A stretch of DNA of 64,000 nt. It comes from Sulfurimonas sp. GTDB lineage: Bacteria; Campylobacterota; Campylobacteria; Campylobacterales; Sulfurimonadaceae. The DNA is taken from assembly GCA_028689055.1 (NCBI GenBank), contig JAQTWZ010000003.1, positions 5,438 through 69,437 on the forward strand, in the 5' to 3' direction. Shown one piece after another: positions 1 to 64,000 of the stretch. Positions within the stretch are counted from its first letter, which is position 1. Each line of letters begins with the position of its first letter. The translations under genes were made by a program, and so were the position numbers. The notes below the pieces were generated by a model. It was not told the origin of the DNA, ran no database searches, and worked only from the letters and a program-made list of their open reading frames with translations.

Positions 1-826
1 TTACTTTTGGGTTTTTAAATTTTTCTCGTCTGAGGTTAAAGCCGAGATAAGTGTAGGAACGGCTTATCTCTTCATAAACATGAAAACTCTTAAAAAAATC
101 CTTGCTAAGTTGTCTCTCATACTCCATAGGTTCGATAGAACCGATATCAAGGGCAGCAGATTTGAGCATCAAAAATCGCGTCATCGGGTCAGCTATAACA
201 TGAAACGCAATACGTTTTATTTTCGGTTCGCCTTCAAAGTAGCTTTCATTTGCTTGCAAAATAATATTTTTAGAATGTTCCAACTGATGGAGTTTATATG
301 GACCTGTTCCGATAGGTTTTGTGTTAAATGCGGAATTCATAATATTTGCGTCATTTTTCAAAATATGCTCAGGCAAAATACCCATCATCCATGTCTCCAA
401 AGCCTTAAAATAGGGCTTTGTATATTTGACTTCAAGTGTCAAGTCATCGATTGCTTTTACGCTTTGCACAAAACGAAAGTTTGCGCTGTAGGGAGAAACT
501 ATTTTGGGCGAGATAAGTGTTTCATAGGTAAAGAGAACATCTCTGGATGTAAGAGTCTGACCATCATGCCATGTGACATTTGGACGGAGTTTGAAAATAA
601 GTGTTGTGTTATCTTTAAAATAAAAATCCTCAGCAAGATCGCCTACAATCGTTGAAGCATCTTTGTCATATTTGACTAAACCGTTAAATAAAAATCCTGA
701 GATTTCTGAAGAGCTTGAATCTGTAGCAAGGATTGGATTGAGTCTGGAAGGATTGGATGCAGTCGCCAGATGCAGCGTTGCTGCAAAAAGGCTGTAAGAA
801 AAAAGAAGCAGTAAAAGAGTGCGCAT
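1..826 (-). CDS. Peptide-type ABC transporter substrate-binding protein (partial)
   Basis: The reading frame is open from an ATG at 826 down to the left edge of the window, so the C-terminal part is missing. It begins with a signal peptide (MRTLLLLLFSYSLFAA) and continues with features of the SBP_bac_5 (OppA/DppA) family: an early NPSRLNPILATDSSS segment, LFNGLVKYDKD, the LRPNVTWHDGQTLTSRDV segment that is a hallmark of the family, and a late LGFNLRREKFKNPKV segment resembling the family's conserved NxxxxPFxDxxVR region. Such proteins bind peptides, nickel or other small ligands in the periplasm and pass them to an ABC permease; the ligand cannot be told here. The downstream gene starts beyond the edge. 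The start lies one base from the stop of the upstream DUF945 gene, suggesting one transcript. Family call is firm; ligand unknown. Confidence 0.88.
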   Translation of the reverse strand, partial: MRTLLLLLFSYSLFAATLHLATASNPSRLNPILATDSSSSEISGFLFNGLVKYDKDASTIVGDLAEDFYFKDNTTLIFKLRPNVTWHDGQTLTSRDVLFTYETLISPKIVSPYSANFRFVQSVKAIDDLTLEVKYTKPYFKALETWMMGILPEHILKNDANIMNSAFNTKPIGTGPYKLHQLEHSKNIILQANESYFEGEPKIKRIAFHVIADPMTRFLMLKSAALDIGSIEPMEYERQLSKDFFKSFHVYEEISRSYTYLGFNLRREKFKNPKV

Positions 827-2203
827 CTATCTCTTGATATCTCTGCCGTTGACCATCAGTTCGCCATCATGCATAATGATTTCAAAAACAAGATTGTTCG
901 CCTCTTCTTTTGCATACTGCATCACAAGTGCAGCTACAGGTGTTGTCTCATTTAGTTTATTAAAAATCTCTTTAGAAATTTTTAATTTTATATCCGTATC
1001 AAGATTTTGCGCCAAAAGTGCCGGAGTATAAAGAAGTTTATTGGCCAAAGCAGGATCTTCCTTAAACGTAATCTGCGAGTGCACCGAAATACCTTTAAGA
1101 TCTTGCGTTTTGTCTAATATCAGTTTTTGAAACGAAAGATCATCAATGTTGAGTGTCACGCCACGGGAAAGAAGTGTAATAAAACTCTCTTTCATTTTCA
1201 ATTCAAGAGTTTCTGATTGACTCGTTTTAGTCTCAGCTAAAATATCTTGTAGTTCTTCGAGAGCATCTTTATCAAGGTCAACTATCGAAACATCATAATT
1301 GAATCCTTCCATAGAAGCATTGAGTGCGCTTGCGTTGACTTGCATCTGCGCAAATGAGCTCTTTGCATATATCTGCGCAAAAGTATCTTGAGTATCTGCG
1401 GACATACTGACTTGAACATCTTTTGCACTCATAGAAACATTATCGTCTCCCTTCATACTCAAGTCAAAATTGCCTAGAGTCACTGCGCTTGCATATTTGC
1501 TTTTAGACGCAAACTCTGATTCTGTATTTAAGTCTGAAAGATTGAACTTCATTTCAAATGTATCTTTTATAGCTTCGATAGAGATATTTTGCATTTGTGA
1601 ACTTAAAATATTTGGTGCGATAAGATTTCCGCTTCCTTCATAGCTCATGCCAAAAAGAGAAAATTTGAGATTAGTCCCGTCATTTTCAATATATGATTCA
1701 TTGATATCTTTGACATAACCACTAAAATCTTCACTTATCATATCATATTGGAGATTGTACAAAATCCCTTTTTTTGCTAGAAATGCACTCACAAAATCGT
1801 AAAAATTTTGGTCACTCTCTTTGAGCGTATCCATTGTTTTTGAAGAGAGTTTTATAGGATATATATCTACTACGATATTGTTTATAAATGGCACATTACT
1901 ATAGGAAACATCAGCGCCAAGTAAAACGCCATCGATGACATCTTGCACATAAGAAGGAATTTCGCCATGGGAAGATTGGTTGAGATATACAAAAAACTTC
2001 TCACTGTCTTGAAGTAAAAACTCATAATGTCTTTTTGTTTGAAGATACGAACTATCCACACGAGTGTTTTGAACATCTATCCCGTTGTCATGAAGGAGTT
2101 CTATTTTTTCATCCAAAGCGCTCGAAATAAGCTTATTTCCAATGATTGGAAGTGCTGCGGCGACCAAAACAAATACAAAGAGAAGAACGAGAAGTTTTTT
2201 CAT
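827..2203 (-). CDS. DUF945 (YdgA-like) family protein
   Basis: This 458-residue protein has an N-terminal signal or anchor helix (KKLLVLLFVFVLVAAALPII) and a long, mainly beta-predicted periplasmic body. The early region LISSALDEKIELLHDNGIDV and the later repeated pattern of polar strands resemble the DUF945/YdgA family, which has no agreed biochemical role. It is close to the length of E. coli YdgA. Its stop codon is immediately followed by the start of the substrate-binding protein gene, so the two are probably co-transcribed. No catalytic motif is visible. Family assignment is by overall pattern and moderately sure. Confidence 0.7.
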   Translation of the reverse strand: MKKLLVLLFVFVLVAAALPIIGNKLISSALDEKIELLHDNGIDVQNTRVDSSYLQTKRHYEFLLQDSEKFFVYLNQSSHGEIPSYVQDVIDGVLLGADVSYSNVPFINNIVVDIYPIKLSSKTMDTLKESDQNFYDFVSAFLAKKGILYNLQYDMISEDFSGYVKDINESYIENDGTNLKFSLFGMSYEGSGNLIAPNILSSQMQNISIEAIKDTFEMKFNLSDLNTESEFASKSKYASAVTLGNFDLSMKGDDNVSMSAKDVQVSMSADTQDTFAQIYAKSSFAQMQVNASALNASMEGFNYDVSIVDLDKDALEELQDILAETKTSQSETLELKMKESFITLLSRGVTLNIDDLSFQKLILDKTQDLKGISVHSQITFKEDPALANKLLYTPALLAQNLDTDIKLKISKEIFNKLNETTPVAALVMQYAKEEANNLVFEIIMHDGELMVNGRDIKR

Positions 2204-2294
2204 ATAAAGGCCTTTTTTATTTATAGGCGGGATTATATATCAATAAGATTTAAGGTTGGATTATTTTGTTTTTGAAGTTGTAAAATAGAAGAGT

Positions 2295-2320
2295 TTACCA
2301 AGCCCCAAAGGGGATGGTAA
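2295..2320 (-). terminator. Hairpin downstream of rpsI
   Basis: On the minus strand TTACCA and TGGTAA flank an inner CCCC-TTT-GGGG hairpin 14 to 39 bases after the rpsI stop codon. The RNA then runs into a pyrimidine-rich stretch rather than a clean U-run. It is well placed to end the rplM-rpsI transcript. Confidence 0.55.
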
Positions 2321-2333
2321 GGAAGAGAAACGA

Positions 2334-2723
2334 TTAACGTTTAGAGAATTGGCGAGAACGACGAGCTTTACGCTTACCTGGCTTCTTACGTTCAACTGTA
2401 CGTGAATCACGAGTCATCATACCTTCTGGCTTGAGTATAGCTTTCAACTCTGGGTTGAATTTTACTAAAGCACGAGAAATACCATGACGAAGTGCATCAG
2501 CTTGACCACCGAAACCACCACCTATAGTTGTAGCGTCGATATCTACTGAAGTATCTTGTTTAGTTAATGCAAGTGGTTGCTTAACACGAAGCTTTTTAGC
2601 CTCAAGACCACCCAACCATGCGTCTAATGAAAGACCGTTGATTGTCATTTTACCTGTTCCTGGAGTTAACCATACTTTTGCTATTGACGCTTTACGACGA
2701 CCTGTTGCATATATTTTTGCCAT
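2334..2723 (-). CDS. rpsI: 30S ribosomal protein S9
   Basis: This is a full-length (129 residues) small-subunit protein uS9. The N-terminus [14 protein letters not shown] and the extremely basic C-terminal tail [18 protein letters not shown] are diagnostic; the tail reaches into the P site of the ribosome. The central [19 protein letters not shown] segment is also typical. It follows rplM by 10 bases, the standard L13-S9 operon of bacteria, and a hairpin follows it. Nothing unusual. Confidence 0.98.
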
Positions 2724-63194: not shown

Positions 63195-63253
63195 GGTTTA
63201 TATAAACGCAGTGTTAGTATCGGCTTCAGCATTTATACTGAAGCAAGATGGAT

Positions 63254-63439
63254 TTAAATATTAAAATCAGAATGTGTAAGAATATTTTCTACAATGTCTT
63301 GATAATATTTTTTTTGCTCAGCACTTCCTAAAGAAACAGGTGGTTCGCCTTTGTCTGAACCTTCACGGATTTGCATATCCAGAGGAATCGCTCCAAGGAA
63401 CGGAATCTGATACTTAGCAGCGATTTTTTCTCCACCGCT
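63254..63439 (-). pseudogene. mrp: Mrp/ApbC P-loop ATPase, C-terminal remnant
   Basis: About 62 codons that read SGGEKIAAKYQIPFLGAIPL, DMQIREGSDKGEPPVSLGS and AEQKKYYQDIVENILTHSDF: the unmistakable tail of an Mrp/ApbC iron-sulfur carrier ATPase. The frame meets a TAG right before it (63440-63442) and the remaining ~300 codons with the P-loop are absent. The fragment has no start codon or ribosome site and cannot be functional. It may mark where a rearrangement joined two regions. Confidence 0.85.
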
Positions 63440-63557
63440 CTAAAATCTGTTTCTTTTACTTTATGTATTTCTTTAAACCTTTTATATCTTTGGCTCTATT
63501 TTTAAAGTAACTGAAAGAAGTTTTATTCTCTTAAGTCAATGGGAGAGAGGGCATTCA

Positions 63558-63602
63558 TTAAGTAATCAAATCGATAATCGTCTGCGCCATCTCTTTTAGC
63601 AT
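63558..63602 (-). pseudogene. Truncated start of a DedA-like gene after murG
   Basis: AAGGAG followed by ATG at 63602, overlapping the murG stop, begins a frame MLKEMAQTIIDLIT that ends after 14 codons. The strong ribosome site and the peptide's resemblance to the N-terminus of DedA-family membrane proteins suggest that a full gene once followed murG and has been cut. The DedA identity rests on a very short stretch and is tentative. The 118 bases between this and the mrp fragment hold only short scrambled frames. Confidence 0.4.
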
Positions 63603-64000
63603 TTTAACTCCTTTGCCACATCTTTTATCATCAAAAGGGCTACGTCTGCGTTTGCGTATTGTATGAGTTTTTTACTCTTTTCATCAAGCTGCTCATGTAA
63701 GATTTCCAGAAGTTTTGCTTTGAGATCAGCGCCTTCTCGTTCACACCATCCCAAATTATTTTCTACGATAAAGCGAGCATTATAAAACTGATGGTCACCT
63801 GCTGCGTACGGATAAGGAATATAAAACGCAGGAAGTCCGTTGGATGTCAATTCCCAAAGTGTACTCGCCCCCGCACGGCTTACTGCAAGATCTGCTTTTT
63901 GCACAAGTTTTTCAAGCTCTTTGGTAAAACCGTACAACTCCACTTCAGCGCCCAGCTTTTCATACCCTTCTCTCACTCTCTCAAAATCACCCTCGCCCGC
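63596..64000 (-). CDS. murG: UDP-GlcNAc:lipid I transferase MurG (C-terminal part)
   Basis: The frame is open to the right edge, so about the last 134 codons are visible. It shows GEGDFERVREGYEKLGAEVE, VQKADLAVSRAGASTLWELT, LPAFYIPYPYAAGDHQFYNA and NNLGWCEREGADLK. The ADLAVSRAGASTLWEL and PxPYAAxDHQxxNA segments form the UDP-GlcNAc binding region of MurG, which adds GlcNAc to lipid I on the inner face of the membrane. The C-terminus is complete and normal, ending AKELKC. Confidence 0.93.
   Translation of the reverse strand, partial: AGEGDFERVREGYEKLGAEVELYGFTKELEKLVQKADLAVSRAGASTLWELTSNGLPAFYIPYPYAAGDHQFYNARFIVENNLGWCEREGADLKAKLLEILHEQLDEKSKKLIQYANADVALLMIKDVAKELKC

Follow-up and report, generated by a model that had tools for sequence, protein, structure and literature searches.

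AAACGCAR in Sulfurimonas, a genome-wide, strand-symmetric word with lineage dialects and a candidate DNA uptake sequence

This analysis concerns the short word AAACGCAR (R, A or G) in a 64,000-nucleotide stretch of Sulfurimonas sp. DNA (contig JAQTWZ010000003.1, positions 5,438 to 69,437), referred to throughout as the window. The genome that holds it (G000), from a sulfur-oxidising bacterium, comprises 2.32 Mb in 82 contigs; its methionine synthase shares 96% identity with the enzyme of Sulfurimonas MAGs, which places it in this genus of Campylobacterota. AAACGCAR recurs throughout this genome, independently of strand and codon; its sites are maintained between relatives, acquired DNA has few of them, and other lineages of Sulfurimonas have words of their own (dialects). 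The relevant features of the window are the following.

203 to 209, plus strand: AAACGCA, first of 44 copies on this strand (exact count); further copies include those at 9883, 13290, 16202, 25978, 35262, 36271, 44554, 57068, 57085 and 63204
1104 to 1110, minus strand: TGCGTTT, first of 54 copies on this strand (exact count); further copies include those at 3392, 9580, 26098, 33753, 34118, 36040, 58348 and 63647
1643 to 1649: CATGAGC/GCTCATG, a second over-represented heptamer with 61 copies in the window; further sites include 3443, 9873, 20645, 34361, 49604 and 60936
3391 to 9578 (C60:8828-15016): 6.2 kb free of AAACGCAR with a GC content of 31% (desert list and Pfam), probably acquired DNA
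4713 to 9284, minus strand: 1,523-aa protein with DUF4011, AAA_11/AAA_12 helicase and MTES_1575 nuclease domains (Pfam), which looks like a defence gene
9499 to 12258, minus strand: AddA-like RecB-like helicase, 919 aa (NF010485 above cut-off; PF00580)
12213 to 14561, minus strand: AddB-like PD-(D/E)XK nuclease, 782 aa (PF12705, 1e-34)
37200 to 39700: stretch free of AAACGCA (count), labelled insertion sequence remnants in an earlier note on this DNA
47351 to 48859, plus strand: ComM/YifB-family Mg-chelatase-like ATPase, 502 aa (TIGR00368 above cut-off)
48896 to 52387, minus strand: metH, with which relatives were retrieved and the species tree was built; its surroundings served for the motif-conservation alignments

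With 98 copies, AAACGCA was the commonest heptamer of the window. The earlier note, made by eye, had reported about 94 copies (42 and 52 on the two strands), and the pattern proved stronger than was claimed; the sites it listed were present, with the copy placed at 34128 lying in fact at 34118. Its remark that A or G follows the heptamer in 40 of 42 cases held on the plus strand (41 of 44) and on the minus strand (47 of 54), giving 88 of the 98 copies. The word is asymmetric and not palindromic, and it is sharply delimited, the 21 one-mismatch neighbours having 4–40 copies each in the window. Single deviations from it were rare. Across the whole genome, AAACGCAR occurred 3,157 times (1590 + 1567; 1.36/kb), against 446 (240 + 206) for the same pattern read backwards, which served as the control. 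In a 720-kb sample of the genome, from which Markov expectations and strand counts were taken, 1051 copies of AAACGCA were observed, compared with 133 expected under an order-1 and 253 under an order-3 model. Higher orders left little excess (913 expected under order 5 for the same sample; 82.5 expected under the maximal order for the window), but these expectations are circular and uninformative because AAACGCA inflates its own sub-words. Relative to other Sulfurimonas, the heptamer was 8.5-fold more abundant, whereas 19 of the 21 neighbours stood at approximately 0.6–1.8-fold; the exceptions, AAACGCC (2.1-fold) and AAACGCG (4.6-fold), point to some tolerance at its final position.

Codon usage was rejected as the cause by a synonymous-codon shuffle, in which codons were swapped among the sampled genes with every protein and the codon usage preserved. 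AAACGCAR was observed 485 times in sense and 338 times in antisense orientation, against 67 and 35 in the shuffled genes. A total of 825 copies was counted in sampled genes where the codon null gave about 100, and the excess over this null was 8-fold in both orientations. The heptamer was present in all frames of both orientations, as the earlier note had stated, with one frame favoured in each. Its occurrence between genes was likewise borne out, the excess over the order-3 model being 5.6-fold in intergenic and 6.1-fold in coding DNA. Both ways in which that note thought its motif might fail, by reduction to sub-words or by codon usage in a single frame, were thus closed by the Markov, neighbour, frame and codon-shuffle results.

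The two strands carried the word evenly (465/424 in 720 kb), and no replichore bias was seen on the 211-kb contig C14 (114/112). Regions without AAACGCAR look acquired. On C14, an island at 80–131.5 kb (C14:80000-131500; L154-L156) with genes for a serine recombinase, a type I restriction–modification system, a ParA-like protein and efflux held 13 copies in 51.5 kb, where approximately 70 were expected (Poisson P = 7e-17), which agrees with the depletion in genomic islands proposed as a check. This island was poor in CATGAGC as well. Within the window, the single AAACGCA of the 4.5-kb helicase gene and its absence from 37.2–39.7 kb were as first described. The density claimed for addA/addB was also real (16 copies in the 5.1 kb from 9499 to 14561), although this pair was picked among many genes. 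The nearness of addAB and the ComM-like ATPase, which had been offered as a hint of the role of the word, carries no weight because the word is genome-wide.

Maintenance of individual sites was scored in the aligned surroundings of metH from relatives, with matched CG-containing heptamers for comparison. In L009, at 85% nucleotide identity, 28 of 35 AAACGCAR sites were intact (80%, against 35% of the matched heptamers); the corresponding figures were 19 of 22 in L060 (86% against 48%) and 15 of 36 in L010 (against 21%). Outside this clade, only 0%–5% of the sites were intact. The sites are therefore kept inside the clade beyond what matched heptamers would predict.

The second word, CATGAGC, has 1,924 genomic copies, compared with 78 for its control, and stands 6.3-fold over the codon null. 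Its distribution is a nested gain: it is dense in the species of the window, half as dense in the sister genome (G301/G350; 879 copies) and near background further out. G299 and G300 have ca. 500 copies, and other genomes mostly 100–250. Site by site, seven of eight CATGAGC sites of the sister (L060) were also found in the window, which had 10 more, while L009 shared four of 27 window sites, the corresponding states being mostly one or two bases off. From this comparison, CATGAGC is spreading in the lineage of the window, with gains exceeding losses. No flanking A/T tracts of the kind found at uptake signal sequences (USS) surrounded either AAACGCAR or CATGAGC.

The survey of the genus covered 135 Sulfurimonas genomes, tallied by hand, with enrichment taken as at least 3-fold over the reversed control. 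By this measure AAACGCAR was enriched in 31 of the 135, and the impression gained from 17 congeners that it is unique to the species of the window had to be rejected. It was strongest in G433, G000, G350 and G364 (some genomes bear several codes: G433 is G299/L009, G350 is G301/L060 and G364 is G300/L010). Dialect words were called de novo as heptamers against the genus background and their one-mismatch neighbours. Among the closest relatives the word differs little (ACACGCA in L045; TCACGCA in L039 and L083). Elsewhere, the words were AACACGCAA in G306 and CTCACGCAR in G016 and S. indica (G307), neither palindromic; the palindrome TTACATGTAA in G309; ACATGTA in G181, G126 and others (2,606 copies across the complete G181 sequence, with 337 for the control); TTCCACATGCCAA in G314; TAGATGC in G322 and G324; TGATGCA in G323; GGATGTA in G276; and AAACGCC in G049. 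These words reached approximately 0.3–1.4/kb and 2.6- to 20-fold over the synonymous-codon null. G276 is another genome with two words, the second being AGMGATC (75 copies against 22 in the codon null; L020, L124, L187). Against the codon null, weak words in G148, G230, G248, G256 and G270 reached z of only about 3–5, and no word is claimed for them; no clear word was found in G221, and the sole word of G114 was A/T-rich. The words are clustered on the metH tree, where 12 changes suffice to explain them, compared with a mean of 19.2 after shuffling (none of 200 shuffles was as low); AAACGCAR alone needs at least three. When the words are aligned by eye, several appear to share an AYG core on which they can be laid over each other (AAACGCA, ACACGCA, TCACGCA, ACATGTA, ACATGCC, AGATGCA, TGATGCA and GGATGTA); AGMGATC does not fit it. 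Outside the genus, ACCGCTTC was enriched in the Sulfuricurvum loci L062 (11 copies per 23 kb) and L064 (9 copies per 23 kb) and is possibly that genus's own word.

The reading we favour, with a probability of roughly 0.55, is that AAACGCAR, newly joined by CATGAGC, is a DNA uptake sequence; we infer that Sulfurimonas may take up DNA bearing AAACGCAR in a sequence-specific manner. The competence pilus would include a receptor that binds the word on free DNA, and fragments bearing it would be preferentially taken up and recombined. Recombination would then spread word-bearing alleles, and copies would build up in the core genome until mutation and selection were in balance. A shift in receptor specificity would let a different word accumulate and so generate dialects, and CATGAGC piling onto an older layer of AAACGCAR would be expected during a change in specificity or with a second receptor.

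Two families, Pasteurellaceae and Neisseriaceae, are reported to carry sequence tags that bias uptake (PMC5031613). The DNA uptake sequence (DUS) of Neisseriaceae, whose receptor is ComP, occurs approximately 1,900–5,900 times per 2.2–2.4 Mb (PMC3630211). The AAACGCAR word resembles it in its thousands of copies per ca. 2.3 Mb on both strands, in its core-genome enrichment and in its lineage dialects. Single deviations are rare in DUS and USS alike (PMC5031613), as they are here, and two words in one genome are known from Simonsiella muelleri (PMC3630211). In contrast to DUS, AAACGCAR belongs to another phylum (Campylobacterota) and is shorter and unrelated, and the Sulfurimonas dialects differ more from one another and include palindromes. 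With the USS of Pasteurellaceae it shares a short, over-represented word and the existence of dialects, within the family in that case; it differs in its unrelated sequence, in lacking the A/T tracts and in the many word types within one genus.

The machinery for uptake is present. Of 79 Sulfurimonas genomes of good quality, 78 have comEC; there is a ComEA-like gene, and most of the genomes inspected have two or three type IV pilin-like genes at a distance of approximately 8 kb from comEC. One of them (L177:93-506 and the homologous loci L178-L195), found close to comEC in almost all Sulfurimonas inspected, encodes 126–191 aa with a nearly invariant N-terminus and a hypervariable C-terminus. 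In G016, the near-complete genome with the CTCACGCAR word, the comEC frame (C1:254710-255462; L182) contains one in-frame TGA.

Several observations weigh against an uptake sequence. The first comEC-linked pilin was rejected as the dialect receptor, as its C-terminal allele and the word do not go together: in G390 the pilin is 66% identical and of the window's type, yet neither AAACGCAR nor CATGAGC is present, and G299 has a different pilin but the same word. G309 and G181, with the palindromic word, share their pilin type with G148 and G230, which lack that word. comEC also occurs in genomes without a clear word, such as G221. The Sulfurimonas words, at 7–8 bp, are shorter than DUS and USS, and TTACATGTAA, one of the dialects, is perfectly palindromic. 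Inverted AAACGCAR pairs within 40 bp were not in excess (26 against ca. 22 expected), unlike DUS, many of which form inverted pairs at terminators. Finally, no uptake or transformation experiment on Sulfurimonas was found in the literature searched. G309 and G181, with the palindromic word, share their pilin type with G148 and G230, which lack that word.

The strongest rival, which we consider rather unlikely, is a methylation-linked motif of the type of the highly iterated palindrome HIP1, in which an orphan methyltransferase would recognise the core of the word, a methylation-dependent bias of mismatch repair would make and keep the copies, and a change of methyltransferase would change the word. 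CATG, GATGC, GGATG and GATC are common type II targets, and these cores lie inside some of the Sulfurimonas words. The quick appearance of new words, such as CATGAGC, also fits this type. Cyanobacterial HIPs reach approximately 500–2,500 per Mb and have been replaced by other palindromes in some lineages, each of these alternate HIPs having a matching methyltransferase (PMC4390886). The Sulfurimonas words are likewise highly iterated 6–8-mers swapped for others in some lineages, and some are palindromic (TTACATGTAA), as the HIP type requires. However, HIPs are palindromic, whereas the word of the window is not, nor are AACACGCAA and CTCACGCAR.

A site for chromosome organisation or segregation, resembling FtsK-orienting polar sequences (KOPS), matS or the targets of a nucleoid protein, would account for a word spread genome-wide through coding and intergenic core DNA, but is quite improbable: the word lacks polarity, its copies are far too many for matS-like elements, and its fast change between sister species would require a matching change in an essential factor. 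A Chi site of AddAB, by which the word would regulate the recombination nuclease encoded in the window, is marginally less credible still. AddAB is present, and the Chi sites of AddAB and RecBCD are likewise short, over-represented and tied to recombination. Nevertheless, the word shows no leading-strand excess on C14, and CTCACG was weakly skewed the other way (168 leading/227 lagging) on the sampled near-complete chromosome of G016, where GC skew marks both replichores cleanly. Moreover, the word is wholly different between species of one genus, and two unrelated words, AAACGCAR and CATGAGC, stand in one genome. The interpretation in the earlier note is borne out in part: uptake-like behaviour is supported, and the absence of replichore bias together with the turnover of the word speaks against Chi or KOPS functions. 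Least credible of all is that the word arises as a side effect of codon usage, amino-acid usage or a context-dependent bias in mutation. The small maximal-order Markov excess and the favoured frames would speak for this; against it stand the 8-fold excess over the codon null in both orientations, the 8.5-fold excess over other Sulfurimonas with most neighbours unchanged and the intergenic excess.

Returning to uptake, we give somewhat under even odds to the broader proposal that sequence-specific uptake evolved independently a third time in Sulfurimonas, with unusually fast dialect turnover, and that the lineage of the window is now seen acquiring CATGAGC. The literature searched, a single library, held nothing on AAACGCAR or on uptake sequences in Campylobacterota, so its novelty is unproven. 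If true, a third occurrence, in Campylobacterota, would provide a natural series for the origin, drift and species isolation of uptake specificity, and, with close relatives using different words, the receptor could be sought by comparing them. Since CATGAGC has been gained in a nested pattern, the emergence of such a word can be followed. Were methylation instead the cause, the case would be one of HIP-like motifs beyond the cyanobacteria.

Two further repeated sequences were noted. AAAAGAG was strongly over-represented in nearly all Sulfurimonas loci and, unlike the dialect words, is shared genus-wide. In G016 (L109, L213, L214, L217-L236), it occurred 670 times in 460 kb, 2.7-fold over the codon null, with 397 copies on the leading and 273 on the lagging strand; it is a candidate for a Chi site or a coding effect. 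Locus L072 (8,985 bp), with very many copies of ACTTGATG, ATCGTTTG and CCACTAGA, is probably a repeat array.

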